From Metabacillus halosaccharovorans (GTDB lineage: Bacteria; Bacillota; Bacilli; Bacillales; Bacillaceae), in NCBI RefSeq assembly GCF_002019635.1, contig NZ_KV917371.1, positions 1-64,000 on the forward strand: a DNA stretch of 64,000 nt, given 5' to 3'. The notes below the pieces were generated by a model. It searched no databases. It saw only the letters and a list, made by a program, of their open reading frames with translations, and was not told the origin of the DNA. The position numbers and the translations under genes are program-made. Position 1 is the stretch's first letter. Each line of letters starts with the position of its first letter. Of the stretch, positions 12,237-57,269 are shown one piece after another.

Positions 12237-12249
12237 TCGGGTCAGTTAT

Positions 12250-15440: not shown

Positions 15441-17459
15441 TTATTCTTTCTCCGTGAATTTCCAATAATCCATATTAAATAAGCTGTTCTCTCCTTCTCC
15501 CTTAAAGATGAAGAAGATATTGCGTGTGCCGCTAACATTCTTGACATTGGTCTTCATCAATTGCCATTCCTGGTCTCCTCCAGTCGGGTTAACGTCGAGC
15601 GTTCCGATCACTTCACCAACTGGGCTGTCTACGCGAATTTCAATCTCACCGCCGACAGTTGAGGCAATATTTGCTACAAAGGATGCAGCACCATTTTTAC
15701 CTAAATCCGCTTGAGAGACTGCCACCCAATCTCCATTATTAATATCGGTTACATTAAGGTTAATGCTTTCAACCATACTGCCAGGTGCTTCGGATTTCTC
15801 AGTTTTAATACCTGCATTCCAGCCGATTGTTTCAGCCTCGTTCCGTTTATACGGGTCAAGGTTTGCTACCTGGGATACACCTTTCATATCAGCTTTGACA
15901 TCTTTCATCTTGCCATTCTCATCATATTCGACTTTATTAATATGAGGAGAACGATAACCTTTAGCTTTGTTCATGGCTTTAGCTACTGTTTGGGCATGGT
16001 ATGTGATATACGTTTGACCCTTGAACTCAAAGAAATCTTGATGGTTATTTCCTCCGACACCGAAGAATACCCATGGGTTCCTAAGTGCTGTCCCCTCATA
16101 CGTCCACGGTCCCATTGGAGAATCACTGGTCATATACGCAATTTCACCTGTCCCCGGATCATCTTCCTGTCGCACACCTGAGAAGTTCGTACTATAAGAG
16201 TAATAGTATTTACCGTTTTTCTTGTGCATACCTGATGCTTCGAACAAGAATGGGGCATCAATGACTTGTGGTTCCCCTACGGTATGAATCATGTCATCAC
16301 TTAGTTTAATGACTCTTGCAGTTGCCGGGTGTTCGGCTTGCTCCTGTGTAGGCGGATTGCCTGGTACTCCTCCACCATAGTACAAATAAGCTTGACCATC
16401 GTCATCGACAAAGCCAGCCGGATCAAATAGCCAGGCAACACCTTGAGCTGCAGGATCATTCCGGCCGATTAACGGCTTACCGAGCGGATCTGTCCATGGC
16501 CCAATCGGACTATCGGATGTAAGAACACCAATGCCTGACGCATTATTAGAAAAATAGAGGAAGAATTTATCTTTTCCATCAATCTCCTTATGTTCAACGG
16601 ATACGGCCCATGATTGAGTTGCCCACTTTGCCGCACCGTTAGGACCCGCTACAGGAATTGCACCGTGATCCGTCCAGTTGATCATATCATCAGATGAGAT
16701 GACATTAACTGTATTGATTTTGCTATAGGTATTATCTATAAGATTTCCGTTTGCATCATATTCGAATTCGTCGTTTGTCATATAAATATAAACTCTACCA
16801 TCATAGACCATCGCATGTGGATCAGCACCAAATTTATGGCTCATCAGCGAATTGGCATAACCAGGAATTTTTGCAATCGCACCTGTATCCAATTGCTTCA
16901 ACCCAATGTTGGCTACTGCTTCATCTACGGAATAGACAATATCCTTGCCATTTCTACGTTCGGCTGTAATAGAATTGGTCCGGATAACATCGGTCCGGTC
17001 GGAGGTCACAAAATCTTTTACTTTTAGTTTGATTGTTGCGAATATATCTGACCCTTTATGCGCAAAACTTACATTCCCACCCTTAACTTGAAGATTTAAA
17101 TTGTCCTTTGAATACGTATAAGAACTGGCTCCACCCATAATGTTTTTCGAATTGAACTCTACCCCAGTCACTGTTAGGCTATCAGGAATATTAAAAGATG
17201 CATGTAAAGATGTGTATTTTCCTTTTGCCAGTTCATCTAATTTCACTTGAACTTCAAGTTCTATATTTGGTGCCCCAATGACTTCAGGAACATCATCCAA
17301 CACAGCTTTCATGATTTGTTCCGCTGAATTTGTACTTACCAGCTTATTTTCAATATTACTTTCATTTTGCTGCGCCGAAGCAATCGACCCATTACTTGGC
17401 ACAAAGTTTAATAGCATGGAAGAAGCCGCAGTAAGGGCTAACAATTTTTTATACACCAT
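15441..17459 (-). CDS. secreted glycoside hydrolase family 43 with C-terminal carbohydrate-binding module
   Basis: The 672-residue protein has an N-terminal signal peptide (basic KK, hydrophobic core to about residue 28). A beta-sandwich at about 62-165 looks cohesin-like. The GH43 five-bladed propeller follows: general base Asp in FGADPHAMVYDGR (about 213), DPAGFVDDDGQAYLYYGG (pKa-modulating Asp), and general acid Glu in LFEASGMHKKNGKYYY. A CBM6-type domain covers the last 140 residues (RNEAETIGW to FNMDYW). GH43 includes beta-xylosidases and arabinofuranosidases, so it probably removes pentose side chains outside the cell. A cre-like site lies about 260 bases upstream. It may belong functionally to the GH92 locus beside it. 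Confidence 0.9.
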   Translation of the reverse strand: MVYKKLLALTAASSMLLNFVPSNGSIASAQQNESNIENKLVSTNSAEQIMKAVLDDVPEVIGAPNIELEVQVKLDELAKGKYTSLHASFNIPDSLTVTGVEFNSKNIMGGASSYTYSKDNLNLQVKGGNVSFAHKGSDIFATIKLKVKDFVTSDRTDVIRTNSITAERRNGKDIVYSVDEAVANIGLKQLDTGAIAKIPGYANSLMSHKFGADPHAMVYDGRVYIYMTNDEFEYDANGNLIDNTYSKINTVNVISSDDMINWTDHGAIPVAGPNGAAKWATQSWAVSVEHKEIDGKDKFFLYFSNNASGIGVLTSDSPIGPWTDPLGKPLIGRNDPAAQGVAWLFDPAGFVDDDGQAYLYYGGGVPGNPPTQEQAEHPATARVIKLSDDMIHTVGEPQVIDAPFLFEASGMHKKNGKYYYSYSTNFSGVRQEDDPGTGEIAYMTSDSPMGPWTYEGTALRNPWVFFGVGGNNHQDFFEFKGQTYITYHAQTVAKAMNKAKGYRSPHINKVEYDENGKMKDVKADMKGVSQVANLDPYKRNEAETIGWNAGIKTEKSEAPGSMVESINLNVTDINNGDWVAVSQADLGKNGAASFVANIASTVGGEIEIRVDSPVGEVIGTLDVNPTGGDQEWQLMKTNVKNVSGTRNIFFIFKGEGENSLFNMDYWKFTEKE

Positions 17460-17583
17460 TATACATCTCCTTCGTCAGTATTTAAAAACCTTATCCATTT
17501 AGCTGCGGTTGTATTTCAATCCGCTGCCAACTCCTGAGTCCCTTATCTACTAATTTAACAATCTATCTTTAATTTTTTTGGCA

Positions 17584-17631
17584 ACACCTCCTGAAAGTCA
17601 GCATATAGAAAAAGCAATTAAATGCTGACTT
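17584..17631 (-). promoter_or_regulatory. leader hairpin followed by a strong ribosome-binding-site-like sequence
   Basis: AAGTCAGCAT (17595-17604) and ATGCTGACTT (17622-17631) can form a perfect 10-bp stem with a 17-base loop. On the minus strand AGGAGGTG (17584-17591) follows within 5 bases, 125 bases ahead of the GH43 start. No proper ORF follows it. It could be an RNA control element in the GH43 leader. Confidence 0.4.
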
Positions 17632-17707
17632 GCCTTGCTTCGTAGAACAATTATTCGCTGCAGCTGACTGTTTACTTTCTATTGAAAAGACTTGAACACT
17701 TTAGAAT

Positions 17708-17722
17708 TATAAAGCGTTTACA
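17708..17722. promoter_or_regulatory. cre-like site (CcpA) upstream of GH43
   Basis: TATAAAGCGTTTACA matches 13 of 15 positions of the catabolite-responsive element consensus WTGNAARCGNWWWCA. The rest of the gap between GH43 and GH92 (17460-17996) shows only A/T-rich DNA, the leader hairpin and the terminator repeat. Confidence 0.55.
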
Positions 17723-17928
17723 TTTGAATAAAAATGGATAATATTTAGAATAAACTATAAATTCCTTTGAACGAAATAAAGAATCTATTAAGATAAGTAG
17801 AAAATATTTAGAAAAAATTGTGTTTTTTTATGGTTTATAAAATTCATCCTAACGGACAAGTTTAGTGATAAAAATAATTTATCTGGCAAAGCCACTGTTA
17901 AAGACTACAATTATTTAAATATAAAACA

Positions 17929-17991
17929 TAAATAAAGTCTGGATCATTTTATGAACCAGACTCTTTTTCTTGTATGAACTTAAGTACCTTT
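17929..17991 (-). terminator. terminator of the GH92 gene; copy 1 of a 63-bp repeat
   Basis: The hairpin AGTCTGG..CCAGACT is followed on both strands by T-rich sequence. The 63 bases from TAAATAAAG to ACCTTT match 32582-32644 with about 10 differences. Both copies sit 6-10 bases past the stop codon of a minus-strand gene. Confidence 0.8.
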
Positions 17992-17996
17992 TACAT

Positions 17997-20900
17997 TTAT
18001 CTCCTGCATGTATTTTTAATATGAATAACTTTTTTCAAAACAAAAATCAGCGCATGTATATTGGCGATCAATTGTTCTTTCTCTCCAGAATCTTTTTCAC
18101 CATTTAATTGATTGATTACCATAATACAGGCTTCTAATTCTATAACAGATAGATTTACTTTGTTTTGATGTAAGTAATCGTATGAACGTGATAAATGATG
18201 TTTAACTTGGTTTTGAATCTCGCTATTTTCTATTTTTTCTGCTAACGATTTCACATACTTACTATTTTCTAATAGATGATCAAATCCGAGCAATTCAATT
18301 TGAGAAAGAGTGGTTACATTTGACCCGCCATTATCAAGGAGTTCAAATCGATAGTGTGAAAAAGCACCTGGATTTTCGATTGTAAAAGCTTTTGTGTATC
18401 TCCTCCATTTAAAATGAACATGTTCTTTTCGATCAAGTACTTCCCAATCCTCTCCGTCATTTGATCCAAGTAACACCCAGCTTTTAGGGTCTTGATTTTC
18501 TTCCAGCCCAGATGTCAGGGTATACAGTAGAGCTTCCTTCTTTCCATCTTCAAATTCGTATTGAACCCAGGGTTTATTATGATTCATTTTCAGTTGCGTA
18601 AGCGAGTTATTATCAAATGCGTTTAGTGCAGGACCATGATCAGAATGATAGGTTCTCCCTTTCATACTATCTGTTAGATCATTTAAACGAGTTGATGAGA
18701 TAGAGGTTCCATTTGTTGAAATGGGTGTTAGTGAAACAGGTAAAGCATTATTACCCGTTCCCCAGTCAGATGGACAATTTCCCATTTCAAACTCTAATGT
18801 TGCTCCATTCGTAAGTGTTTCATGATCAATTGTTACCTTATGATATGGAATTCCATTTACTTTAAGACTTTGAATATATTTGTTTTTATTACTCACATCA
18901 GGTGCAAGAATCGTTATTTCATGACCATTTTCAAGATGGATGATCATTTTTTTAAAATACGGTGCTCCGATTGCATATGATGGTAGGCCCATTTGTAATG
19001 GATAAAAACCGGCTGCACTAAATAAGTACCAGGCAGACATCTCACCATTATCTTCATCACCAGGATAACCCTGACCAATTTCGCTTCCTATATACAATCT
19101 TGATAATACTTCCCGAATCTTTTCCTGTGCTTTTGCTGGCTGACCGACATAATTATACATATACAAAATATGATGAGAAGGCTGATTACTATGTGCATAC
19201 ATCCCCATCCTCACATCACGCGCCTCACGCATCTCATGGATAATTTGTGAATAATGCCCCTTATATAAACCGGTTTCAGGAATGGAGAATAAAGTATCAA
19301 GCTTTTGTGCTAATTCTTTTCGGCCACCATAAAGATTTGCTAAACCTTGACCATCATGTGGAACATGAAATGCCATATTCCATGCATTTGTTTCCGTATA
19401 ATCTCCACCCCACTCTTCAGAATGGAAGGAATCAGCAGACGTTCGCCATTCTCCGGAAGGTTTTTTCCCCATAAAAAACTTTACATCAGGGTGAAACATT
19501 TCCACATAATTTTGAGCTCGTTCTTTATAATAAATAGCATCTGTACAGTATTGTGAGTGCATTGGATCCTTTGGATCGGTTTGTAATGCCAACTCTTTTG
19601 CGAGATTTGCAATAGCAAAGTCATTGATATAACCATCCATAGCCCATGACAAGCCTTCTTCAACGGAATTGTTAGTAAATCGGTCGAAAATGGATGTTGT
19701 TAACCCTTTTCTTCCGACACTTTCATCTTCACTTGCGACAGCTGCGTTTTTAATGGCAGATTCATAAAAAGCGTTCACATCAAAGTTGGTTACTCCTTTT
19801 AAATAGGCATCTGCAAAGGCAACATCTGAACTTGTTCCGACCATTAAATTAGCATAGCCGGGTGATGACCATCTTGATATCCACCCTCCGTCTTTATATT
19901 GCTGAATAAATCCATCGATCATTTCTCCGGCATGTGTTGGACTAAATAAAACGTATGCAGGCCAAGCTGTTCGATATGTGTCCCAAAACCCGTTATTGAT
20001 ATAAGGCTTTCCTTTTAATAGATTTGCTCCTGTTTTTATAGGAGTATCTTTGCCTAATGGTTTTGAAAAAGAACTTGCATACATAAATGTCGGATCATCA
20101 TCTGTTCCTGTATTTTCATAGCCGACATTAGGATACAAAAACAAACGATATAGATTTGAATAAAGTGTTGTTAATTCTTCTTCACTAGCGCCTTCCACTT
20201 TGATTATGTTCAGTTTTTCTTCCCATGCATGTTTGGCTTTGTTTTTTACACTCTCAAATGTATCTTCCTGCTTTATATCCTGATGTAAATTTCTTTTTGC
20301 TTGTTCAACACTAATTAAGGATGTAGCTATATTCATCGTAACGGTTTTATCTGATTCCCCGGTATTAAAGGAAATAAAACCTGCTACATGATCCCTGTTT
20401 TCACCGGTGAGCTTGCCGCTTTTAATCATCTTTTTATTAAAAGTTGCATAAATAAACATTCTTGTTGCACCAACTGATAAATTGCTTTTTACATCAGAAT
20501 AGCCTGTAATGATGTTCTCTTCAGGTAGTATGGTTAACCCTCCAAGATCATTCACATTGTCGAAAATAAGGCTTGAAACATTATCAACAAACGTAAACCT
20601 AAACATTGCTGAACGGTTTGTAGGAGTAAATTCCGTCTTGATTCCATTTTCAAATGTCACTTTATAATAATGAGGTTTTGCCACTTCATTTTTATGCTGA
20701 AACGGGAGTGCTCTTTGTTTTCGATTCACACTAGGATTAACGGATCCAGAAGGCATCACCTGGAAAGTCTGTCGATCGCCCATCCATGGACTTGTTTGAT
20801 GACTTATTGAAAAAGCTTGTAATTCAGGTAAATTATCTGGGTTATTATGTTGTTGATATGAGTATAGCCAGCTTGTAGAACCGGCGTCTGTAACAGGAGT

Positions 20901-21710
20901 CCAAAAGTTAAATCCATGTGGTATGGCTACAGCAGGAAAATTATTTCCTCTTGAGAAAGTAGAATTTGAATTTGTTCCTCTTAAAATGCTCACATAATCG
21001 ATAGGGCTTTTAAAAACCTTTTCACCAGTCATCTCAGCAATACGAATATCATCAATTCTTCCTTTAAAAATACCTGGCCCTTTTGGTTGGTCATATGCAA
21101 CTAATATGCGGAGAATTTTTTTACCACTTGCTACAAGACCGATTTTAGATGTTTTATAATTCCATTGATTCGGATATAGCGTATTAGAATCACCTTGGGC
21201 TATGGGACTCAAACGAACTCCGTGTTGGTCTACTGCTTCATGATCACTTAAATATGTTCCATCACTAAAAGCAAGATCAAGGCTTACATACGTACTTGAG
21301 TAATCTCTTTCTTCTTCGTCGACAAACTCCGGATGGATCAAATAAGAGAGAGAAGTTGCTGGAGTAACATCTATATCCACTTCAAAAAGTTTAATATAGG
21401 AATAAGCTCTGTTGCTTGATACGTGATGACCCGAGTAACTAAGTGCTTTTTGGCCTGACCATCCCACATTTGTTTTACCTGTATAACTATTGAGAGGTCC
21501 TGAATCTACTTCCGTTTTCATCATACCGATTTCTAAGTTTTGATTAGAAAATACTCCTGATGATAATCTCGTACCATTACCCTTTAACTCTACTGAATTT
21601 TCCCAATGCGGCTGTTCTTCTATCGTTTCAAATGAGGAAAAAAAATGAATCTTATCTTTTTCATCTGAAACTTGAAGCACCTTTTTAATGTCAGCTGTTT
21701 TATCATTCAT
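17997..21710 (-). CDS. GH92 alpha-mannosidase with C-terminal discoidin-like domain
   Basis: The 1237-residue protein contains the GH92 hallmarks: SRWSSPGYANLMVGTSSD, the acid-residue region TETNAWNMAFHVPHDGQGL (about residues 765-785), and GYPGDEDNGEMSAWYLFSAA (about 880-900) with the paired Asp bases. GH92 enzymes are calcium-dependent exo-alpha-mannosidases that invert. The first 240 residues form a beta-sandwich-like region. After the catalytic module come an F5/8-type (discoidin) domain (about 1000-1160) and a short helical tail. There is no signal peptide, unusual beside the secreted relatives of Bacteroides, which suggests action on imported manno-oligosaccharides. It is last in a seven-gene minus-strand run. 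Confidence 0.93.
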   Translation of the reverse strand: MNDKTADIKKVLQVSDEKDKIHFFSSFETIEEQPHWENSVELKGNGTRLSSGVFSNQNLEIGMMKTEVDSGPLNSYTGKTNVGWSGQKALSYSGHHVSSNRAYSYIKLFEVDIDVTPATSLSYLIHPEFVDEEERDYSSTYVSLDLAFSDGTYLSDHEAVDQHGVRLSPIAQGDSNTLYPNQWNYKTSKIGLVASGKKILRILVAYDQPKGPGIFKGRIDDIRIAEMTGEKVFKSPIDYVSILRGTNSNSTFSRGNNFPAVAIPHGFNFWTPVTDAGSTSWLYSYQQHNNPDNLPELQAFSISHQTSPWMGDRQTFQVMPSGSVNPSVNRKQRALPFQHKNEVAKPHYYKVTFENGIKTEFTPTNRSAMFRFTFVDNVSSLIFDNVNDLGGLTILPEENIITGYSDVKSNLSVGATRMFIYATFNKKMIKSGKLTGENRDHVAGFISFNTGESDKTVTMNIATSLISVEQAKRNLHQDIKQEDTFESVKNKAKHAWEEKLNIIKVEGASEEELTTLYSNLYRLFLYPNVGYENTGTDDDPTFMYASSFSKPLGKDTPIKTGANLLKGKPYINNGFWDTYRTAWPAYVLFSPTHAGEMIDGFIQQYKDGGWISRWSSPGYANLMVGTSSDVAFADAYLKGVTNFDVNAFYESAIKNAAVASEDESVGRKGLTTSIFDRFTNNSVEEGLSWAMDGYINDFAIANLAKELALQTDPKDPMHSQYCTDAIYYKERAQNYVEMFHPDVKFFMGKKPSGEWRTSADSFHSEEWGGDYTETNAWNMAFHVPHDGQGLANLYGGRKELAQKLDTLFSIPETGLYKGHYSQIIHEMREARDVRMGMYAHSNQPSHHILYMYNYVGQPAKAQEKIREVLSRLYIGSEIGQGYPGDEDNGEMSAWYLFSAAGFYPLQMGLPSYAIGAPYFKKMIIHLENGHEITILAPDVSNKNKYIQSLKVNGIPYHKVTIDHETLTNGATLEFEMGNCPSDWGTGNNALPVSLTPISTNGTSISSTRLNDLTDSMKGRTYHSDHGPALNAFDNNSLTQLKMNHNKPWVQYEFEDGKKEALLYTLTSGLEENQDPKSWVLLGSNDGEDWEVLDRKEHVHFKWRRYTKAFTIENPGAFSHYRFELLDNGGSNVTTLSQIELLGFDHLLENSKYVKSLAEKIENSEIQNQVKHHLSRSYDYLHQNKVNLSVIELEACIMVINQLNGEKDSGEKEQLIANIHALIFVLKKVIHIKNTCRR

Positions 21711-21846
21711 GTATGCTTATAACTCCCTAATTAATATTTATTTAATACAGTGTGGTTGAATGCAGATATTGTTAACCGCGTTCAACCACACTGAAGATGA
21801 ATCTAAGTAGACTCTCTCTAGCATTTACTGTATATTAATGAAAACT

Positions 21847-23883
21847 CTAAAGCTCTGATATAAAATTACGTTCATTTGCCTTTCTATCTTGACTCCCTCT
21901 TGATTCAACATCTGCCAGCATTTTGATGAATAGCCCCCCAACAACCGAACGATTTTGAAAGTTCATTTGCTTTCCGGAAACTGTATCATACCAATCTGTG
22001 AAAGGAACACGGCTTTCTGTTTCATGTAAAAATCTCCAAAGAGGAGCGATCATTTTTTCAAAATCACCTTCTTTAGTTGCCATTGCAGCAGACCAGACAA
22101 GCCAATCGGCCTTTGTATATGTGTTTCTGTTATCAAGAGGTGTTCCGTATTTATTTTGTTTTGAAAGATAATGAGGTATTTCCTTTTGAATGATTTCTTT
22201 TGAGAACAAATTTAACCCGAAGAGGTGATCCCAAATTAAATTGTATTTTAAGCTCCATGTCTCATCTAAACTATCAAATGTTAGTTTGTAATGAGTATTG
22301 GCCGAAGCCATCTCTTCCCATTGCTGGGCCATTTTTTTAGCCATTTGATAGTAGGTTTCGCCATTCTTTTCGTTTAGCATGTTACACATAATTGAATAGG
22401 CTCCAATTCCAAGGATGGCTTTAACAGATAAATTAGCATTATGTGCGAGATGTCCGGCAAAGTCATCTGTACATAGCTGGTTTTCCGGATCAAGTCCGTT
22501 TTCTATTAAATATGTGGCCCATTTTGATAAGTGTTTCCAGTGATCACGTGCAAAATTTGAATCGTTTTCATATAAACATATGGATGCTGCCATAATAAGC
22601 ATGTTTCCACATTCTTCAATTGGCATCTGGTATTCTAGTTTATTTTCTCCATATACCTGACCATTTGCTTTCGGATAACAACCAACATCATGTGGAGCGA
22701 AGTCAAACTGCCATTCCTCACTTTCAGCATAACGAAAGATCGGGCGCATCATTCCTTTCACCATCTCAGGATTGTAAAGCAGGAAAAGTGGAATGGATGG
22801 ATAACTAACGTCAACCGTCGCTATACAACCGTTGCTAAAGTTTTCTTTTGATAAAAATAATAGATGACCATCCTCATCAACTACTGTTTTATGTGCAGCA
22901 ATTGCCTGCCTATATGCTAATGAAAGCAAATCTTTATATGTTTCTCCGCCTATTTCGGTACTTTTGTTTATTAATAATTGATTAAATTGATCACAGCGTT
23001 TTTGAATTTGATCATATTGATCAAAGGCTGTTGCCAGCATCTCTTCAAAGGACTGACCATCTTTACGCCAATAGGCTTTTAACTGGTCTCCAAAGTATTC
23101 AATAGAACGAATATCATCATAAGCAACAGCTAAAAAACAAGAAGATTGTTCCTCACTTATTTCACCTATATCTATGACAGCTGCCATAACTGGCACATCT
23201 AAGCCATCACCTTCTCCACTCGATAAACTTCCAGTCTCTAAGAATCGTTTTCGTACTTGATAGGATTGGATGCTCGTTGATAGGTTTTCAGATTGAGGAG
23301 CAGCTAAATAGCAATATCCCCAGTCTATTCTTGTATCATCACCAACACGTTTTAATATTGGTTGTTCTTTCGTTCCCATATGCATGGCTACTATTTTATT
23401 TAGTATTTGTGTCGTAGACCCTTCAACATCTTGATCAAGTGAATGTACACATAATTCTTTTGATACATCAACGTATAATTTAACACTATGGCTCGTTCCA
23501 TCAATCGAACGTACTCCAAACGTTACATAAGAAACCGGTTTTGATAATAACTCGACATCATCAAGCAGTAAAGGTGTTGTAAATTTAACTTCTAATTCAA
23601 TTCCTTCTCCTTCAAATAGATATGTAGTCGTTAAAGGCTCGACTTTCACATTTTTTTGCTCTAGAAAATCAGGCTCATGGTATGTGGACGTTTCATCCAA
23701 TTCGACCTTCCCCATAAATCTTCGCGGTTTGCCATCGATTAAAAGTAAGCCGACCATACTATTTCGTTTGTTCGTCCAATGGACTGTATGTTCATCATAT
23801 AAATGATCTGAAGGTGACCATACGCTGAAATATGGGTCTACTGTAATAAGTGGTACTGATGGCGGTCTTAATGATTGAGTCAT
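21847..23883 (-). CDS. DUF4964/DUF5127/DUF4965/DUF1793-type protein (glutaminase A-like architecture)
   Basis: The 678-residue protein starts LRPPSVPLITVDPYFSVWS, the DUF4964 signature, then a beta-sandwich region (DUF5127-like) and an all-helical second half with YPSIPLFLLYNPEMVKGMM and FAPHDVGCYPKANGQVYG, matching DUF4965/DUF1793. Fungal relatives are called glutaminases, but bacterial members sit in glycan loci and look like (alpha/alpha)6-barrel glycosidases. No signal peptide is seen, so it is cytoplasmic. AAAGGAGATGG precedes the ATG. Between the importer genes and GH92, a role in intracellular glycan breakdown is inferred; the reaction is not established. Confidence 0.8.
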   Translation of the reverse strand: MTQSLRPPSVPLITVDPYFSVWSPSDHLYDEHTVHWTNKRNSMVGLLLIDGKPRRFMGKVELDETSTYHEPDFLEQKNVKVEPLTTTYLFEGEGIELEVKFTTPLLLDDVELLSKPVSYVTFGVRSIDGTSHSVKLYVDVSKELCVHSLDQDVEGSTTQILNKIVAMHMGTKEQPILKRVGDDTRIDWGYCYLAAPQSENLSTSIQSYQVRKRFLETGSLSSGEGDGLDVPVMAAVIDIGEISEEQSSCFLAVAYDDIRSIEYFGDQLKAYWRKDGQSFEEMLATAFDQYDQIQKRCDQFNQLLINKSTEIGGETYKDLLSLAYRQAIAAHKTVVDEDGHLLFLSKENFSNGCIATVDVSYPSIPLFLLYNPEMVKGMMRPIFRYAESEEWQFDFAPHDVGCYPKANGQVYGENKLEYQMPIEECGNMLIMAASICLYENDSNFARDHWKHLSKWATYLIENGLDPENQLCTDDFAGHLAHNANLSVKAILGIGAYSIMCNMLNEKNGETYYQMAKKMAQQWEEMASANTHYKLTFDSLDETWSLKYNLIWDHLFGLNLFSKEIIQKEIPHYLSKQNKYGTPLDNRNTYTKADWLVWSAAMATKEGDFEKMIAPLWRFLHETESRVPFTDWYDTVSGKQMNFQNRSVVGGLFIKMLADVESRGSQDRKANERNFISEL

Positions 23884-23992
23884 TATTTTCCATCTCCTTT
23901 GGTTTTTGTTTACTAATTTGATCCTCTAAGAAAAGGGAGAGACTATGACTCTCCCTTTTTATTTTTAAAGAGGTTTACTAATATATGTTCGT

Positions 23993-25654: not shown

Positions 25655-25710
25655 GTTAATCCCCCTTGTACATTTGTATTTATTTGATAAACTTCTTAAA
25701 GTAAGAAGAC

Positions 25711-26607
25711 TCATCCCTTTACAGAACCAATCATGACACCTTTTACAAAGTATTTTTGTAAAAATGGATAAACAAAAAGAATAGGTAATGTCGCTACCAT
25801 TAATGTTGCCATACGCAACGATTCAGGTGTTGTTTGTGCAATGGTTTGTAAGCCCACTGATGTACCTGATTGTGAAGCATTTTTCGCAGCATCTGCTTGT
25901 GCAATTGATTGATTTAACAGATCATTTAATAATGTCTGAACTGGTAGTAAATCTTTGCTTGTTACGAAATACGTACCTGTGAACCAGTCATTCCAATGAA
26001 ATACTCCATTAAATAAGCCAATAGTGGCAAGTACTGGCATTGATAAAGGTAAAATAATTTTTATAAAGATTTTAAAGTCACCACAGCCATCCATTTTAGC
26101 TGATTCTTCAAGTGAACTCGGGATTTGCATGAAGAAAGTTCTCAGCACAATGATGTTGAAAAAATTATATAAAAACGGGATCACATAGACCCAAAACGAA
26201 TCAATCAACCCCAGATCCCGATATAAGACAAATGTTGGAATCATTCCTCCGCTAAATAGTGTTGGAATAAAGATGAAGAAGGTAAAAAAGCTTCTTCCCG
26301 GCAGGGTTTTTTTCGTTAACGCATAAGCAAATAACGCACACAAAAATACATGTAAGGCGGTACCAATTACTGTTCGAAAAATTGTAATTTTATAAGCATC
26401 TAAAAATTTCGTATCTTGGAATATTTGAATATAATTTTCAAATGTAAACCCTCTCGGTAAAAAATAGATTGGGTTTTTCATTGCCTCTACACCATCACTA
26501 AGTGAATACGCTAAAATGTAAATAAACGGGTAGAGAGTAGTGAAAGCGAATATAGCTAACACGGTATAATTCACGATAGAAAACATCGACCATTTTTTTC
26601 TTTTCAC
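25711..26607 (-). CDS. ABC importer permease, LplC/YtcP-like
   Basis: The 298-residue protein has six predicted membrane helices and the permease EAA loop (SLEESAKMDGCGDFKIFIKI, then LPLSMPVLATI). Such permeases pair with an LplB-type partner and a long solute-binding lipoprotein to import oligosaccharides. The start is GTG with AAGGAGGG ten bases before it. It is followed by the lipoprotein gene and preceded by the second permease 15 bases away. The energising ATPase is probably a shared MsmX-type protein from elsewhere in the genome. Confidence 0.92.
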   Translation of the reverse strand: MKRKKWSMFSIVNYTVLAIFAFTTLYPFIYILAYSLSDGVEAMKNPIYFLPRGFTFENYIQIFQDTKFLDAYKITIFRTVIGTALHVFLCALFAYALTKKTLPGRSFFTFFIFIPTLFSGGMIPTFVLYRDLGLIDSFWVYVIPFLYNFFNIIVLRTFFMQIPSSLEESAKMDGCGDFKIFIKIILPLSMPVLATIGLFNGVFHWNDWFTGTYFVTSKDLLPVQTLLNDLLNQSIAQADAAKNASQSGTSVGLQTIAQTTPESLRMATLMVATLPILFVYPFLQKYFVKGVMIGSVKG

Positions 26608-26622
26608 TTGTGACTTCCCTCC

Positions 26623-27588
26623 TTACCATAAAGATGTATCATTCACTTTTTTACTCACCTGATTAGCCGTAATGATGAGGATTAACCCAATGATTCCTTG
26701 GAACAATCCGACTGCTGTTGCATAACTAAATCGCCCTTGCTCTAATCCGGCTTGAATAACATAAACATCTAAAACCGTCCCGATCTTCGCTGTTGCTGGC
26801 GTATTTAATAGTAATAACTGCTCATACCCTGCAGACATGATGCCACCACAAGCAAGAATAAATAACAGGACCATGACTCCTCTAATGGATGGTAGAGTCA
26901 CATGCCAAATTTGCCTAAAGCGATTGGCTCCATCAATCTTTGCCGCTTCATATAGTTGCGGATCAACTCCTGAAATAGCCGCTAAGTAAATGATGGCTCC
27001 CCAACCGATACCCTTCCAAATATCTGAAGCAATGATGACTTGGTAAAAATAATTGATATTTCCTAAGAACTGAATCTTGTCAAATCCGAATGTTGACAGG
27101 AGCTCATTGACCGGGCCACCATACGGAGTTAACATCCTTTGCAAGAGCGTAACAACAACTACCCAAGAAATAAAATGTGGCAGATAGGAAATGGTTTGTA
27201 CTGTTCTTTTGAATTTCGTTACCCTCACTTCATTCAACATTAATGCTAAAATTATCGGCATCGGAAACCCAATTAACAATTTCATCAAACTAATGATCAA
27301 CGTGTTCCTTATAATTTCTCCTGCTTGATAATAATTGAAAAACTGTTCAAAGTATTTCAAGCCTGCCCATGGACTCCCAAGAATTCCTTTCACAAAGTTA
27401 AAATCTTTAAAGGCAATCGTGATGCCATACATCGGAATATACGCAAAGATAAAAAACCAAATAATTCCCGGAAGTAAGAATAAATAAAACACCCTGTGCT
27501 GCCATATTCTAAACCAAATACTTTTCTTATTTGTCTTTATGATCAATTCTTGGTGGGAAGCTATCTTCACTTCAGAGTCACCTTTCAT
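26623..27588 (-). CDS. ABC importer permease, LplB/YteP-like
   Basis: About 321 residues with six predicted helices and an EAA loop (DPQLYEAAKIDGANRFRQIW, then HVTLPSIRG). It carries the N-terminal extension and PGIIWFFIFAYIPMYGI segment usual in LplB/YteP proteins. Two in-frame ATGs lie near the ribosome binding site AAGGGGAG; the second (27588) has the better spacing. It forms the channel with the permease just downstream. Confidence 0.92.
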   Translation of the reverse strand: MKGDSEVKIASHQELIIKTNKKSIWFRIWQHRVFYLFLLPGIIWFFIFAYIPMYGITIAFKDFNFVKGILGSPWAGLKYFEQFFNYYQAGEIIRNTLIISLMKLLIGFPMPIILALMLNEVRVTKFKRTVQTISYLPHFISWVVVVTLLQRMLTPYGGPVNELLSTFGFDKIQFLGNINYFYQVIIASDIWKGIGWGAIIYLAAISGVDPQLYEAAKIDGANRFRQIWHVTLPSIRGVMVLLFILACGGIMSAGYEQLLLLNTPATAKIGTVLDVYVIQAGLEQGRFSYATAVGLFQGIIGLILIITANQVSKKVNDTSLW

Positions 27589-27627
27589 TGCCATCCACTC
27601 CCCTTACATCGCGACACTTAAAAAGTT

Positions 27628-29808
27628 TCACGACCATTTCACTGAAATTTTCGTTGAATCTGTTGAACTATGAAAATATTGGACAAAAATAGTTTTCGAT
27701 TCTTCATGCCAATCCCATTCAATAGATTTGCTTTTATGACCAATGATAAGATTTGCTTGAACCGGCTTTTTAGGACAAAATATACGGGCTACTGCCTTTA
27801 TTTTTTCCGGACCTTTTACAACCATTTCAAATCCAGAATCATGATTTATGACATCTTCTATCCTTGATGAGGCTGCAATGACCTTCATCTCTGTTTCAGG
27901 CATGTCATCGTCTAAATCGTATAATAGAGTCATATCTTCAGGACCTAGTTGTAGTTGAGTGATGACTGGTAAAGCTGGATCAAATAAATTAACGAAATGT
28001 CCATTCAATTTCAACGGTGCAGCAGAAATTGATTCATCCATGACTGCCGCGATTCGATAAGGCCCTCTTTTAACCATAAAATAATTCTTCTCTTCCAACT
28101 CAACTTGGTGATTGTTCGTGTTCAAGCATTTCGTAATTAAGTCTCTATACATGTCTGCGCTTTTTCTGTCATTAGCACAATCCTCTGGGGAAATGTTCAA
28201 AAATCCCAATACCCCTTTACCAATTTCATATATGCTTTGTTCCTTTTCATTTGATAATCCTAAGATTTCAAACAAATGTTCTCTAGGAACATCATATTTT
28301 ATCTTTCCGGTATTCCACCATTCTCTTACATAGTGATATGGATCTTGATCATTCCCTACATAAATTAAAACTCCACCTTCTCTTACCCATTTAGCAAGTG
28401 CCATATGTAAATCAGGGTACTCCGGTTTTTGAAATTCATAGCTTAAGATTAAGAGGCGATAATCATTCAGGTAATTTGAAAACCGTCGAACATTATCAAA
28501 TTGAACAGGTCTAACCATAATTCCTCTCTTTATTAGCGGTAGCGCTAATCCATAAAAATGAGAGAAATTTAAAAGGTCAATGTCATCCTCATTTGTCACA
28601 GTATTTGTGTCTGTACCATCATAGCGTTCGGATGAATCCTTATCATCGGTATGGAAATTTTTACGTTGATACATCATAGAATCTGAAACAAGAACCCCGA
28701 TTTTTTCTGCCATTCCGTATTCTTTAACATCATCTTGATTCATATCCCCGAGGGTGTGCATAATCGTTAACAGTGTTGTCGCATAATCTTCAGAAATTGC
28801 CTCCTTACCTGTTCCCTCTTCATTTGGATACTTTCCATCAAAAATCCGTTTTGGCCATGGAGATATTTCGTATTGAAAAATTTCAGGATGTAATAATGAA
28901 GCAACAACGGTTTTAAGGTAATTTCTTTTATAATCAGACCAAGTGTATCTAGGATTATCTTCAATAGGATCATGCAAAAACCACATGTTCCGATCTGTTC
29001 CGCTTACTAACTCCTGCATCATCCCATACTCTAATAAAGCGGTTTCAAAAGTTCGTTCCTTCCTTACACCTTCATAAACATTTTTGGTACGTGAGGTACC
29101 AGTCCAAATTTGCGCAATGTACCCATCAATTGCCGGCAGGTCAAGAAGCATCGATTCCGGACTTACAATTCGCCATTGTGTATAATTTATTAAGCTATGA
29201 GTGGGAACGTAAAATCGTAAAAAACGATTGTATTTTACAAGGGCGTATTCTTTTAACTCACTGCAAAGTCGATCTAAACTGCGTTTGTATAAATAAGCTT
29301 TTAGATGTGAAGCACGGTATTGGGCGTCAACCGAATCATGTGGCGGCTGCCATGGTTCTTTGTAATAAACTTGCCATTCTCTTTTAAAGCTTTCTGAATA
29401 TCCTCCATCAACCCAAAACTCCGGTTCCTCTAAATGAATGGCTTCAACTCCAGCATCTACCGCAAGTTTAATGCGACTTGTCAAATACTGTGTAAAAGCA
29501 ACCGTAGGGACCATATAAGGAATATCTTTACCATGAAGGATATGTGATCCTTGTTTATTTTTTTGAGCTTCATCCCAATGTTCGCGACCATCGAATTTTC
29601 CATACAAATAATCTTGATATTCTCCCCATGCAATCCCTGTCATTAAATGAACAACATATCCCTTGTTTTTCCATTCTTGAATTCGCCTTGGCATTGATTC
29701 ATCTATGCCGTAAACCATGACAAAATCGGATTGTAAATCATATGTAGCCTTGTAAGGAGCTGACTCTTGGAAACCTGTCCTTTCTTCTCTGCGATCCCTA
29801 ATGTTCAT
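27628..29808 (-). CDS. unrecognised 726-residue protein, putative glycoside hydrolase
   Basis: I cannot name a family. What can be seen: residues about 1-400 read like a (beta/alpha)8 barrel, with a strand ending GVEAIHLEEPEFW whose two glutamates could be catalytic, and many surface aromatic residues (AWGEYQDYLYGKF, QIWTGTSRTKN). Residues about 440-560 (LLILSYEFQKPEYPDLHM, then WVREGGVLIYVGN) resemble the Rossmann-like domain found after the barrel in GH42-type enzymes. The last 130 residues look like a beta-sandwich. No signal peptide; GGGGAGG precedes the ATG. It sits first in the run after the secreted GxGYxYP gene and before the permeases, so it probably acts on the imported sugar. Confidence 0.6.
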   Translation of the reverse strand: MNIRDRREERTGFQESAPYKATYDLQSDFVMVYGIDESMPRRIQEWKNKGYVVHLMTGIAWGEYQDYLYGKFDGREHWDEAQKNKQGSHILHGKDIPYMVPTVAFTQYLTSRIKLAVDAGVEAIHLEEPEFWVDGGYSESFKREWQVYYKEPWQPPHDSVDAQYRASHLKAYLYKRSLDRLCSELKEYALVKYNRFLRFYVPTHSLINYTQWRIVSPESMLLDLPAIDGYIAQIWTGTSRTKNVYEGVRKERTFETALLEYGMMQELVSGTDRNMWFLHDPIEDNPRYTWSDYKRNYLKTVVASLLHPEIFQYEISPWPKRIFDGKYPNEEGTGKEAISEDYATTLLTIMHTLGDMNQDDVKEYGMAEKIGVLVSDSMMYQRKNFHTDDKDSSERYDGTDTNTVTNEDDIDLLNFSHFYGLALPLIKRGIMVRPVQFDNVRRFSNYLNDYRLLILSYEFQKPEYPDLHMALAKWVREGGVLIYVGNDQDPYHYVREWWNTGKIKYDVPREHLFEILGLSNEKEQSIYEIGKGVLGFLNISPEDCANDRKSADMYRDLITKCLNTNNHQVELEEKNYFMVKRGPYRIAAVMDESISAAPLKLNGHFVNLFDPALPVITQLQLGPEDMTLLYDLDDDMPETEMKVIAASSRIEDVINHDSGFEMVVKGPEKIKAVARIFCPKKPVQANLIIGHKSKSIEWDWHEESKTIFVQYFHSSTDSTKISVKWS

Positions 29809-29906
29809 TCTTTTTGAAGCCTCCCCTTTTTTCCTATGATTTAATTTGGATAGAGCCTCTAAAATTTATAGAGGTTCTATCCTTTCATTTCATGCAGAAA
29901 TCTCGA

Positions 29907-31967
29907 TTATTTTTTCGGTAATCCATTTGCTTCACGTATTAAATCAAAGTATTGATCTCCTCGTACCACTTCATATTCAGGTCCTAAAGAATTCACAATT
30001 TCCTGAATATGGGATGGTGTGACAGACCAGGATAACATCCCCATTGATAAAAATAGTGGTGATTCTCCATCCCAATTTGCTGCTGCCTCTGCAATCGCTT
30101 CTTTCGTTTCAGAAACACTTCCAACACCTCGTAAAATAGATATAGGAAGTTTACCATTCAAAATGGATGTTCCAGTATAATTTTCCCAACTATAGAGAAT
30201 ACCTCTAGGTTTGATATATTTGACATAATCATTCACTTCAGATTCTGTTAATGGAACATTTTGTTCATTTACACGATTAAGTGCATAAATAATATCCATT
30301 CCTGTTAATTTCATATATTTGTTTGTTTGCTTTGCAAAAAGAGGAAACGTATCATCCGGCCATGGTGTTGGATAAATATAACCAGCTCCAGACGGACCGA
30401 CAACTAATAAATCATTCTCTGTTGCAGATTGTTGATAGAAACTAAGCATCGCCGGTGCTGCATCATAGAGTAATGGAGTCGTAGACCAGTTAATTGGAAC
30501 AGACCCTCTCGCTTCATCATCCCAAAGCTGTCGTAGTTTATGCTGATTATATTGGAGATTGTCTCCTTCACCTAATGTAAACGTGACATAGATTTTATTT
30601 TCCAGTTTTGGTGCAGGAAGTGCAGCCTGCTTTTTCATTTTTCCTTTCGTCCCGGAAAAGACGGTCATGTTATTGAACCAGTCAGCCGCAAGAACATAGA
30701 CGCTATGCTCTGAAGCCAATTCAGTTGAACTAAATTCACCTGCAACATCATTGCTGAACCAACCTAAATATGGGGTGTTTGGTTCAACATCAGATAATAT
30801 TTGTTCAAATAATTCTTTTTCTTCAGGTACATTTGTTTCTAACCAAAAGACCATTGCTTTATTTGCGACTGCATAATCTCGTAAAAATCCATATGGTTCT
30901 TTCACTTCTGAAGATAAAGGTTTCACATTTGATACAGAAACTTTAAATTGATTCCACATATCAATCGAAACTTGTAAATCCTCTGTCCCGGCAGGTGGTG
31001 TAAACTTATAGACGAAGTAATTACCGTTATCTGCCCAACGGTGACCACCAAAACGATCATCAGAATTTGAATTGTTACGATCATATAAATAAGGTTCTTC
31101 CTCACTTGTTCCAGGTACAAATTGGGCAATGATTTCACCATCAGCTCTAACGGTTACTTCATGAACAGCTGGACCCCATCCGTCATTCGTGAAGGCATCT
31201 TGAAAACGTAAGTAAACATCTTCTTCACCGAGATAGTTCGATAAATCGAGATCATAAACATCTTGATTTGAGCTGTCTCTAATTTGTTCCTTCTCTTCTA
31301 GAATCGTATCAAAATCATCCCAGTTATCTTTTGGTAACTCTACACTTTTGCTGGGGTTTAACCCAACCAGCATCCGGTGCGTTGTTTTTGGCCAAAGATG
31401 TTCAAGTTGCCATTTATAAGCCTCAAGTCCGTTTTCAAATTTGCCTCGTAAATCTTCAATCACCTTAAAATCGTATGGTGCCTGTTTAAGCTTCTCAGCA
31501 AGCTCCGGACTTACTACTACTGCATTTTCCAATCCTGCCATTGTAGTGGCTACGTTTATGGTATCCTCTACTTCCGGGTCATAAATAATCATGCCAGATA
31601 CGTATTTTTTGTACTTTTTCACTAAGTCCCATGGATCGTCAATCATAGAATAAGGAACATTAATATCGTTTAACCACGTATAATTTCCTTCTTCATAATT
31701 AGATTCAATCAAATAGATCGAGTTTTTTTCTCGATTAACATTTCCTTGGAGTGTTGTAAGAAGAAGTTTTTCATCACCTGAACGCTCTCTTAAATCAACT
31801 ACATCAAGATGCTTTGCTTTCGGAAATGTTGGAAGTGCCTGATTTTTTGGCCATGTAACATTTCCGTTTTTCACCTTATTTGAATCAAGATTTTTCGCAC
31901 TAACAGATGTTACTGATAAAATAAGGGCCAATGCTAAACAGATTTGAATTAGTTTTCGAACCACCAT
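29907..31967 (-). CDS. secreted GxGYxYP-domain protein (putative glycoside hydrolase)
   Basis: The 686-residue protein begins with a signal peptide (KLIQICLALALILSVTSVSA). It contains the family motif as PSGAGYIYPTPWP at about residues 520-535, in a C-terminal half with MLSFYQQSATENDLLVVG and ILYSWENYTG. The N-terminal half (VVDLRERSGDEKLLLTTLQG) fits the matching N-terminal domain. An extra beta-sandwich-like insert of about 130 residues (near 215-345, YLRFQDAFTNDGWGPAVHEV) resembles a carbohydrate-binding jelly roll. No activity is established for the family to my knowledge. GGGAGG precedes the ATG, and a cre-like site lies 125 bases upstream. Confidence 0.85.
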   Translation of the reverse strand: MVVRKLIQICLALALILSVTSVSAKNLDSNKVKNGNVTWPKNQALPTFPKAKHLDVVDLRERSGDEKLLLTTLQGNVNREKNSIYLIESNYEEGNYTWLNDINVPYSMIDDPWDLVKKYKKYVSGMIIYDPEVEDTINVATTMAGLENAVVVSPELAEKLKQAPYDFKVIEDLRGKFENGLEAYKWQLEHLWPKTTHRMLVGLNPSKSVELPKDNWDDFDTILEEKEQIRDSSNQDVYDLDLSNYLGEEDVYLRFQDAFTNDGWGPAVHEVTVRADGEIIAQFVPGTSEEEPYLYDRNNSNSDDRFGGHRWADNGNYFVYKFTPPAGTEDLQVSIDMWNQFKVSVSNVKPLSSEVKEPYGFLRDYAVANKAMVFWLETNVPEEKELFEQILSDVEPNTPYLGWFSNDVAGEFSSTELASEHSVYVLAADWFNNMTVFSGTKGKMKKQAALPAPKLENKIYVTFTLGEGDNLQYNQHKLRQLWDDEARGSVPINWSTTPLLYDAAPAMLSFYQQSATENDLLVVGPSGAGYIYPTPWPDDTFPLFAKQTNKYMKLTGMDIIYALNRVNEQNVPLTESEVNDYVKYIKPRGILYSWENYTGTSILNGKLPISILRGVGSVSETKEAIAEAAANWDGESPLFLSMGMLSWSVTPSHIQEIVNSLGPEYEVVRGDQYFDLIREANGLPKK

Positions 31968-32090
31968 TATTCCTCCCTATAGTAGCTAATCGTTTTTCTT
32001 TGATTCAGACTTCTAAAAGGCCATGAATTGTAAACTATTTAACTATGTATCTACTCAACTATCACCTCCTAAAATGTCGTAGATCAGTTA

Positions 32091-32105
32091 ATGTTAGCGC
32101 TTACT
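32091..32105. promoter_or_regulatory. cre-like site (CcpA) upstream of the GxGYxYP/GH92 operon
   Basis: ATGTTAGCGCTTACT matches 13 of 15 positions of the catabolite-responsive element consensus WTGNAARCGNWWWCA, about 125 bases ahead of the first gene of the operon. Confidence 0.55.
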
Positions 32106-32142
32106 TTTTATTTTTTAATGCAGTTAAATGTGAAAATTAGTT

Positions 32143-32206
32143 CGTTTCATTGCGCTCCACTAAGGATTTAAAATATTATTCAAAGCAACAATCTTTGCGA
32201 AAGCAG
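32143..32206. repeat. partial copy of repeat B followed by repeat C
   Basis: TTCGTTTCATTGCGCTCCAC recurs near 41490 and 52514 and is related to the end of the full element at 36064-36165. ACAATCTTTGCGAAAGCAG (32188-32206) is the C repeat, as at 41531 and 36185. Confidence 0.6.
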
Positions 32207-32581
32207 AATTAAAAAAGGAATAATTTGACGCTTTGTAAAAGTGATAAGATTGGTGAATAGAGTACTTGATTCTCGCTATCTGTTGATTGAGCGATGAACC
32301 TGTCTGTGCATAGCCACTATATGGAACACCGATTATTTAAATATAGTTATTATGGCAATTATGTAATTCTTTTAGAAAAATTGATGAGTTAGGAAGTTAT
32401 TATTTTATTTAAGTAGAAAGTAGTGTCACTCTTAGAAGGATTAGATATGGGTAAATATGTAGAAAGCAACATTTGATATATTTAATTATATTATATAATT
32501 CATTTATGTCAATAATGCTTTTTAAGTTTTTTATACTTTTTAAGAGCGAACAATCTGAATGTGTTTTATAGATCATTAACC

Positions 32582-32644
32582 TAAATAAAGCCTGGATCAT
32601 TAAATGATCCAAGCTCTTTTTCTTGTATTAACTTAAAAACCTTT
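32582..32644 (-). terminator. terminator of the GntR/LacI-type gene; copy 2 of the 63-bp repeat
   Basis: GCCTGGATCATT pairs with ATGATCCAAGC and is flanked by T-rich sequence. The 63 bases match 17929-17991, which lie after the GH92 gene, with about 10 differences and no gaps. Confidence 0.8.
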
Positions 32645-32653
32645 ATCTCTTCC

Positions 32654-33826
32654 TTAAGGTTTTGTTAAAACCCCAGTCGTTTCTTTTATGATTAGTTTAG
32701 GAGTAAGATTTACTTTTTGATACCCCGCGTTAATCATATGATTTTGTTGATTCGTAAGCAATTGAAGTAATATTTTTGCTGCTTCTTGACCCATCATGTA
32801 TTCAGATTGCGAAATATGAGTGTATACTCCAAAGTCATCGTACCCAGATGAAGGATCGTCATAGGTAAGAATTGAAATATCCTCAGGAACTTTAAGTCCC
32901 AGTCTTTTTGATAAGCTTGAAATATACAATCCCAATTTTGCATTAAGTGTAATAAACGCAGTAGCAGATCTCTTTTCCATGAGTTGATATAAAGGATGGT
33001 CCGGCTCAAATTTATCGTAATCCACTCTAAAATCCGAGAGAATGAGGGATGGATCAATCATCGCCCCCTTCTCCTTCAACGCATCCATATAGCCTTTTAT
33101 TCTCAGCTCAACAGAAACTGTCGGTAATGCCGAATCGGAGCATATCGCAATATTCCGATGTCCTAAATCCCAAAGATGAGAAACAGCAAGCTTTGCTCCG
33201 AGAACATTATCAGAATTTACATAATTGGTTTCAACGCCGGGTAAATACCGATCAATTAGAACAAAAGGGAAATGACGAACCTTTAATTCCAAAATATCAT
33301 CATTATATATTTCAGCATCAACCGGGAAGATAAGTAAGCCTTCAGCATGCATGCTCATTAGCTCTCTAATGGCTTCACGCTCTTTTTCCTTTGAATTTTG
33401 ACTAAGTAAGATGACCAAATAATACTCTGATTCTAATAAAACTTTATTAATTCCATTAATCAATCGGATAGCAAAAAAATCATTTATACCAGGCATAATC
33501 AGTCCGATCATTTTACGTTTCTTTTGCCCTTCCATCACCAATTCAGTTGAAGTATGGGTCAGATCCTGATTTTGTACAGTAACATTTGTTAATTGGTGCA
33601 CATCCTCACTAACAAAGCTCCCCTTGCCAGGTACACGGTATATCCATCCCTCTTTTGCTAATTCTGTTAAGGCATTTGCAACCGTAATCCTACTCACATT
33701 AAAGATTTCCATTATTTCTCGTTCTGTAGGAATTTTTTCATTTGGCGATAATCGTTTCGTTACTATTTCATTTTTAAAATAATCTTGAATTTGCAAATAA
33801 AGTGGAGACCTTGATTGATTCTGCAT
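32654..33826 (-). CDS. GntR/LacI-hybrid transcriptional regulator (AraR-like architecture)
   Basis: The 390-residue protein has an N-terminal GntR winged helix (PLYLQIQDYFKNEIVTKRL, then REIMEIFNVSRITVANALTE) and a LacI-type periplasmic-binding-like domain from about residue 95 (RKMIGLIMPGINDFFAIRLI). This arrangement is typical of AraR and related sugar-sensing repressors of Firmicutes. AAGGGG precedes the ATG. It lies at the head of the GH92/GxGYxYP locus in the same direction and probably represses it until a sugar binds. Its operator was not identified. Confidence 0.9.
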   Translation of the reverse strand: MQNQSRSPLYLQIQDYFKNEIVTKRLSPNEKIPTEREIMEIFNVSRITVANALTELAKEGWIYRVPGKGSFVSEDVHQLTNVTVQNQDLTHTSTELVMEGQKKRKMIGLIMPGINDFFAIRLINGINKVLLESEYYLVILLSQNSKEKEREAIRELMSMHAEGLLIFPVDAEIYNDDILELKVRHFPFVLIDRYLPGVETNYVNSDNVLGAKLAVSHLWDLGHRNIAICSDSALPTVSVELRIKGYMDALKEKGAMIDPSLILSDFRVDYDKFEPDHPLYQLMEKRSATAFITLNAKLGLYISSLSKRLGLKVPEDISILTYDDPSSGYDDFGVYTHISQSEYMMGQEAAKILLQLLTNQQNHMINAGYQKVNLTPKLIIKETTGVLTKP

Positions 33827-56413: not shown

Positions 56414-56447
56414 TGTGAACAACATAAATTACAAATTTAGTAAAGCA

Positions 56448-56697
56448 TTGAAAAGGACATGAATTATTCTTCGTTTTCTTACCAGAGAACAGGGTCATTG
56501 GCTGAAAACCCTGAAGAAAAGGGAATGATTTACCACCTTCGAGCTATTATAGGGAAATGAATTCATCAGAGTATCTATAATCGGGAAATCCGTTATCGTT
56601 TTGAGCATAAAGCATTCTTCTAACATGTTTTATGGAATCTGGGTGGAACCACGACCGCACTCGTCCCTACTTTTGGGAGGAGTGCGGTCTTTTTTTT
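56448..56697 (+). ncRNA. T-box leader 1 (threonine)
   Basis: From TTGAAAAGGACATGAAT through a Stem I with specifier region TTTACCACC (codon ACC, threonine) to the antiterminator bulge GGTGGAACCACG (56642-56653) and the terminator GACCGCACTC/GAGTGCGGTC plus T-run. The bulge TGGA would pair with the 3' end UCCA of an uncharged tRNA. The A usually first in AGGGTGG is T here (TGGGTGG), unlike units 2 and 3. Confidence 0.93.
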
Positions 56698-56720
56698 ATA
56701 TAAAATTAAATAAGTAGGCG

Positions 56721-56969: not shown

Positions 56970-56992
56970 ATATAAATTTAAATAAGTAGGCG

Positions 56993-57241: not shown

Positions 57242-57269
57242 ATGCAAATTAAATTTAGGAGGAATTCAA

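Follow-up and report, generated by a model that had tools for sequence, protein, structure and literature searches.

Which glycan is served by a small, conserved and regulated operon in which three families of unknown or contested function stand alongside a known kind of mannosidase and a single transporter, and what does its least familiar member contribute? The operon lies on the minus strand within the first 64,000 nucleotides of contig NZ_KV917371.1 of Metabacillus halosaccharovorans, a soil relative of Bacillus (assembly GCF_002019635.1), referred to here at its full length as the window, and the member in question is a 726-residue protein that we designate UNK726. We consider it probable that this is a polysaccharide-utilisation operon of the Gram-positive kind, serving an oligosaccharide that contains alpha-mannose, and that within it UNK726 and a DUF4965-type protein act as linked glycosidases; the new part is the UNK726 family and its link to DUF4965. 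What can be read directly from the sequences is the conservation of gene order, the localisation pattern, the GH92 catalytic residues, the co-occurrence of UNK726 with DUF4965, and the presence in Metabacillus of GH92 at the place that GH38 takes in other lineages.

Gene content, order and predicted localisation

A preliminary description of this DNA had proposed a minus-strand run of genes behind a GntR/LacI-type regulator, and open reading frames (ORFs) together with Pfam matches bear out both the genes and their order (Table 1), with transcription proceeding from the regulator through GxGYxYP, UNK726, LplB, LplC, the lipoprotein and the DUF4965 protein to GH92. Between GxGYxYP and GH92 no intergenic gap is wider than 136 bp, and at the narrowest the genes overlap by 4 bp; with gaps so short a single transcript is plausible. 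A search for the same order elsewhere, which that description had called for, found it unchanged in the Metabacillus loci of genomes G402, G405, G407 (where the regulator gene is cut by the edge of the retrieved stretch) and G416; the locus of G413 has no transporter genes. In G413 there is also an in-frame fusion (L015, 9374-11932) of UNK726, up to about residue 531, to a shortened DUF4965 protein, which is either a real deletion or a draft-assembly error. Gram-positive polysaccharide-utilisation loci are defined by linked carbohydrate-active enzymes (CAZymes), a carbohydrate transporter and a regulator, and here a degradative CAZyme, a transporter and a regulator are found in one conserved locus. 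We found no description of this operon among literature titles and abstract openings on mannosidases and alpha-mannan in Paenibacillus, Bacillus and Metabacillus, a survey in which subscription papers are poorly covered.

Table 1. Genes and sites of the operon and its surroundings, with positions in the window
Feature	Position	Strand	Evidence
Regulator, GntR-type helix-turn-helix with LacI-type sensor (chimera)	32654..33826	-	Pfam GntR 8.8e-19, Peripla_BP_3 6e-17
Terminator-like hairpin 3' of regulator gene	32587..32617	-	pattern scan
Sigma-A-type promoter TTGACA-16-TATAAT, 5' of operon	32485..32512	-	12/12 consensus bases
cre-like (CcpA) site AGTAAGCGCTAACA	32092..32105	-	1 mismatch vs consensus
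Secreted GxGYxYP protein, putative extracellular glycosidase	29907..31967	-	four Pfam GxGYxYP domains
UNK726, 726 residues, putative cytoplasmic glycoside hydrolase	27628..29808	-	no family match; GH42M-like region
LplB-type ABC permease	26623..27594	-	BPD_transp_1 3.6e-16
LplC-type ABC permease	25711..26607	-	BPD_transp_1 9.2e-13
Solute-binding lipoprotein	23993..25714	-	SBP_bac_1 6.6e-15
GtaA/DUF4965-type protein, putative cytoplasmic beta-glycosidase	21847..23883	-	DUF4964, DUF5127, GtaA_6_Hairpin 1.5e-140
Multi-domain GH92 alpha-1,2-mannosidase, predicted cytoplasmic	17997..21710	-	GH92N + GH92 1.2e-140 + sub-threshold F5/8C
Secreted GH43 + CBM6, neighbour outside operon	15441..17459	-	nearest 3c7g 1.8e-182

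Localisation was judged by a crude hydropathy test, not by SignalP. Hydrophobic N-termini are lacking from the GH92 (0/6), DUF4965 (0/28) and UNK726 (0/45) proteins and from the GH38 proteins found elsewhere (0/36), whereas they are present in 19 of 20 GxGYxYP proteins and 27 of 30 solute-binding proteins. This pattern agrees with the earlier proposal that import precedes cleavage by GH92 and DUF4965. The lipoprotein likely starts at residue 21 (~25654), with the lipobox LAAC, and its orthologues in loci L013, L014 and L017 align from that residue; its nearest matches in the PDB are 9pmy, a solute-binding protein, and then AlgQ1/AlgQ2. A Pfam scan found no ABC ATPase in the operon. The genome encodes two OB_MalK ATPases, both UgpC-type, and judging from the neighbouring ORFs one UgpC/MsmX-type gene stands alone and the other has its own permeases and binding protein, in line with the shared MsmX-type ATPase that had been suggested.

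The GxGYxYP protein has the whole four-domain architecture and a signal-like N-terminus, and its nearest solved relative is 3sgg, BT2193, in which Glu272/Asp331/Asp333 form an acidic triad (PMC4071793). The equivalents of Asp333 and of Asn334 are kept, that of Asp331 is Glu, and that of Glu272 depends on a hand-shifted alignment gap. GxGYxYP genes beside GH92 and GH38 were already noted by Rigden in 2014 in Bacteroides and Caldithrix (PMC4071793), and the window gene likewise stands by genes of GH92/GH38 type. The statement that GH92 and GxGYxYP are best known from Bacteroidetes thus needs a qualifier, as the structure and properties of a GH92 with this architecture from a member of the Bacillaceae have been described (PMC10167667).

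In the pathway that we propose, the secreted GxGYxYP protein would trim or free the ligand outside the cell, and the AlgQ-like lipoprotein with LplB/LplC would import it, energised by a UgpC/MsmX-type ATPase encoded elsewhere. The cytoplasmic GH92 would then take off alpha-1,2-linked mannose, and UNK726 and the DUF4965 protein, as a linked glycosidase pair, would cut the remaining linkages; the GntR/LacI regulator would respond to a sugar, with possible repression by CcpA.

The UNK726 family and its proposed partner DUF4965

Searches with 38 UNK726 members gave no Pfam or NCBIfam match at E <=0.001, and the PDB yielded none to UNK726, profile search included. Weaker Pfam matches, to ParE_toxin (0.0013 at best, three members), DUF4350, ASD1_dom, LBP_M and others, were discarded. 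The protein had been called unrecognised, which holds as regards family matches; it is not a lone orphan, and a large DUF4965-linked family had been missed. With the own genome counted wherever it was sampled, a single-sequence search of the phylum found relatives in 2 of 398 genomes and a profile search of the class in 11 of 299; in the family to which genome G066 belongs, 98 of 295 genomes have one, three of these with long forms only. None was found in a scan of viral contigs. The plasmid collection held one, annotated 'hypothetical protein', and because it belongs to Paenibacillus cellulositrophicus we take the G066 family to be Paenibacillaceae. The window itself is chromosomal and close to M. 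niabensis EaN21-8 and Bacillus sp. J37, which belong to the same genus; its UNK726 protein is 96% identical to that of the former and 97% to that of the latter.

The most probable identity of UNK726 is that of a mostly cytoplasmic glycoside hydrolase with a GH42-like middle domain, from a family uncatalogued in Pfam, NCBIfam and the PDB, a reading to which invariant acids, a GH42M-like region and long forms with CBM9 and SLH domains all point. Six residues are invariant in all 46 sequences compared, eight long forms included (E127, E128, D280, D284, H204 and Q233), and the four acidic ones are active-site candidates. In profile-profile comparison, residues 424-629 align to the GH42M/C region of 29 GH42 proteins (E 1.5e-4, Prob 52), as against E 0.0088 or worse for controls with unrelated families (seven for UNK726, seven for GH42), and one 722-residue protein with a GH42M match aligns to UNK726 with E 6e-6 and Prob 85. 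The likeness to GH42 beta-galactosidases lies in the middle and C-terminal region, whereas the N-terminal catalytic part of GH42 does not align: the window protein has no match to that domain to E 10, and the 38 members have none to E 1. Eight long forms hold the whole region; seven are of 1027-1786 residues and have signal-like N-termini by eye (7/8), and the eighth is a 788-residue frame. Among the three of the eight scanned against Pfam, two carry CBM9, one of these also SLH (S-layer), and the third adjoins GH38 and GH2 genes.

Two other accounts of UNK726 were weighed. 'Uncatalogued' refers here to Pfam, NCBIfam and the PDB, not to CAZy or dbCAN, and not all CAZy families have a structure, so that UNK726 might belong to an existing CAZy family absent from these three libraries; with all three giving no match, we regard this as somewhat unlikely. 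That it is instead a non-enzyme, assisting the pathway by binding carbohydrate or by regulation, would suit the lack of a significant family match and the unrecognised N-terminal part, but the invariant acidic residues, the GH42M-like region and the long forms with CBM9 all speak for an enzyme, and we think such a role unlikely.

The tie between UNK726 and the GtaA hairpin (GtaA_6_Hairpin, the present name of DUF4965) is seen across 295 genomes, of which 79 have both, 19 UNK726 only, 11 GtaA only and 186 neither (Fisher 9e-41); when the three genomes with long forms only (G612, G664 and G693) are discounted the figures become 78/17/12/188 (Fisher 5e-41). For these counts an UNK726 gene listed in two pieces was entered once, leaving 118 places, 13 of them long forms, and three short fragment rows (two from G693, one from G700) were left out. 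Stratified by genus, which is not a full phylogenetic correction, the pairing gives p 1.2e-29 over 282 of the 295 genomes, the genus of 13 not being shown. The two clearest genera have 10/0/0/30 and 16/0/1/21 genomes (both/UNK726 only/GtaA only/neither); genus g298 has none with both and three with UNK726 only.

All three domains listed in Table 1 are present in the DUF4965 protein, and a profile search of the PDB found no solved relative. Proteins of this type have been described as GH116/GH52-like, a glycosidase probe is reported to label a fungal member, and the S. misionensis homologue to have no glutaminase activity and weak beta-galactosidase activity (PMC9668830). The known fungal case is secreted, whereas the window protein is predicted to be cytoplasmic.

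A larger proposal, which we hold tentatively and as a little short of evenly balanced, is that UNK726 defines a new family of glycoside hydrolases, found in roughly one in three of the Paenibacillaceae-like genomes sampled and comprising cytoplasmic members as well as long secreted ones, once of S-layer type, and that it is tightly paired with DUF4965 on a mannose-containing heteroglycan so far unrecognised as a substrate of Bacilli. If this were true, working out either partner would give UNK726, DUF4965 and GxGYxYP a function at one stroke. The pairing makes the function of DUF4965 directly testable.

The mannosidase and the probable substrate

The GH92N and GH92 domains of the mannosidase pass their curated cut-offs (136.3 and 470 bits vs 34.5 and 24.6), and the nearest solved relative is 7nsn_A (1636.7 bits; the best stretch covers residues 62-1222), which is NnGH92 from Neobacillus novalis. 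That alpha-1,2-mannosidase is secreted, has five domains and owes its specificity to three residues of the +1 subsite, Trp, His and Glu (PMC10167667). When residues are counted by hand along the alignment printed with 2wvx, the general acid E773 and the base pair D885/D887 are the equivalents of E533 and D642/D644 of Bt3990, and W309, H825 and E826 those of the +1 triad Trp88/His584/Glu585. The catalytic residues and the alpha-1,2 triad are thus kept. The protein differs from NnGH92 in that its open frame of 1239 codons leaves no room for a signal peptide, and in that its alignment skips the first CBM32, which is inserted in the N-terminal domain. With a layout of CBM-like part, GH92, CBM32-like part and a C-terminal part aligned to a helix bundle, it is most plausibly an alpha-1,2-mannosidase of the cytoplasm, and a secreted, CBM-bearing type of mannosidase would then have been re-used in the cytoplasm.

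Among 60 relatives searched (21 of the genus, own included), GH92 is present in six Metabacillus genomes and in one genome of another family. GH92 and a complete or almost complete UNK726 occur in the same six of the 21 Metabacillus genomes (Fisher 1.8e-5), one of which, G407, carries a second GH92; in a seventh, G399, the UNK726 match spans 91 residues and contains stops (E 6e-4). In a quick tree of 44 UNK726 sequences the five Metabacillus rows, with GH92, form one clade, and all remaining mannosidase-bearing rows have GH38; the tree is without G413, and two long branches leave other placements unsure. This distribution suggests one exchange of mannosidase, GH38 and GH92 occupying the same slot in different lineages.

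Neighbouring genes were counted in 47 UNK726 loci, namely the window, five from Metabacillus, those of G066 and G888, and 39 stretches covering 40 of the 118 places, all picked by eye for score and genus spread and not at random. GH38 is present in 36 and GH92 in 6, with either one in 42; permeases are found in 43, two kinds of binding protein in 30 and 14, a regulator in 42, DUF4965 in 31, GxGYxYP in 21 and GH76 in 3. More distant genes escape these counts because the stretches are of ~20 kb or less, and GxGYxYP and a GH106/GLMA-like gene lie just past the stretch end in G066 and G486. Of 144 neighbour ORFs listed, 84 were scanned, one being GH125; the other 60 were omitted by eye as presumed shadow frames, ABC-type genes and gene sets already represented. 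The mannose-containing glycan of the preliminary description is supported by these neighbours and by the alpha-1,2 residues of GH92. In two genomes from the genus of G066, DUF4965 is also followed by a gene for a protein of 1096-1098 residues (L133 982-4272, L134 3805-7101), the L133 product matching GH106 and GLMA domains.

Several observations weigh against an alpha-mannoside operon with UNK726 and DUF4965 as paired glycosidases. Five of the 47 loci have neither GH38 nor GH92, and the mere presence of GH38 means little because 262 of the 295 genomes of the family have it; the chance of finding it in a 20-kb stretch is estimated at a few per cent (up to 8 scored copies, some 6.5 Mb). In the poorest genus, g299, one genome has both partners and seven UNK726 only (7/8 without DUF4965). 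DUF4965 lies within 15 kb at just 55 of the 118 UNK726 places and at none of the other 63, so that the link between the two must be more than adjacency. The alignment of DUF4965 to GH116, collinear over 442 columns, is weak (E 0.0049, Prob 7; best of six controls 0.013); of 21 ORFs taken from stretches in which GH42M matched weakly, 20 scored no better than E 0.0039 against UNK726; and the N-terminal part of UNK726 matched no known family. AlphaFold2 models from three-sequence alignments had mean pLDDT values of 39 (UNK726) and 29 (DUF4965), and both were discarded. The number of cre-like matches in the window is that expected by chance (5 vs 5.27), and the enzyme set matches no single known glycan.

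A narrower route is the uptake of alpha-1,6-mannan fragments with alpha-1,2 side chains from fungal alpha-mannan, which is conceivable though on balance doubtful. NnGH92 acts on yeast alpha-mannan (PMC10167667), the alpha-mannan locus PUL69 of B. thetaiotaomicron holds GxGYxYP genes (PMC4071793), and the GH76 and GH125 genes counted above would fit such a substrate; but GH76 is found in so few of the loci, neither family is in the window operon, and a beta-glycosidase-like DUF4965 protein would be superfluous for pure mannan. A xanthan-type heteroglycan, with the inner alpha-mannose of its side chain removed by GH92/GH38, is very unlikely: the xanthan cluster of Paenibacillus taichungensis I5 likewise joins GH38 and GH92 in a set of mostly intracellular enzymes with transport and regulator genes (PMC12827396), but its GH9, PL8 and GH88 are missing from the operon, GH9 and PL8 are not among the 25 commonest of 136 families in the 84 neighbours (where rare families could hide), GH88 has three weak matches there, the same number as GH76, one GH76 protein itself giving a weak GH88 score, and the available part of the account of that cluster names no UNK726, DUF4965 or GxGYxYP.

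An operon for an alpha-mannose-containing oligosaccharide is the reading that we hold probable. The route had been called complete, which does not hold: no sugar kinase or isomerase is found among the operon genes, and phosphomannose-isomerase-type genes lie elsewhere in the genome.

Regulatory sites and neighbouring genes

Promoter-like sites taken together are about as frequent as expected by chance (74 vs 74.5); both hexamers of the promoter 5' of the operon are kept in five aligned Metabacillus loci. The position of the cre-like site is likewise kept in five Metabacillus loci, with one mismatch in four and two in L014, and an AraR-type operator shows no enrichment across the window. Terminator-like hairpins number 18 in the region vs 11.6 (sd 3.5) in shuffles, so that the hairpin behind the regulator gene is weak evidence alone. 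Hairpins at 29848-29882, in the gap between GxGYxYP and UNK726, and at 23930-23960, between the lipoprotein and DUF4965 genes, are possible partial terminators or processing sites. The operon leader (31968-32480) is ~510 bases long and contains, ~100 bases 5' of the GxGYxYP start, a AGGAGGTGA block kept in five Metabacillus loci; no gene was recognised behind this block in the leader, short ORFs being outside this look.

The GH43 gene, which had been described as standing next to the run, sits 537 bp behind GH92, and we rejected it as a pathway member. Its best solved match is 3c7g/3c7e, which we take to be the arabinoxylan arabinofuranohydrolase of B. subtilis, and it is present in G402 and G416 and absent behind GH92 in the more distant Metabacillus genomes G405, G407 and G413. 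GH127-type genes were observed behind GH92 in G416 (L092 1170-3116, between GH92 and GH43) and in G405 (L014 249-2636, with CBM35).

Elsewhere in the window, an OMPdecase/HUMPS-family gene is followed by a SIS-domain gene (11595-12807, plus strand), probably encoding a hexulose-phosphate synthase and isomerase. At 56439-57217 and 57147-58481 (plus strand), three tandem T-box leaders precede a threonyl-tRNA synthetase gene, as a triple T-box does before thrZ in B. subtilis; the product aligns with the 565-position thrS model from position 164 to 559 only, making it a short threonyl-tRNA synthetase without the N-terminal part.

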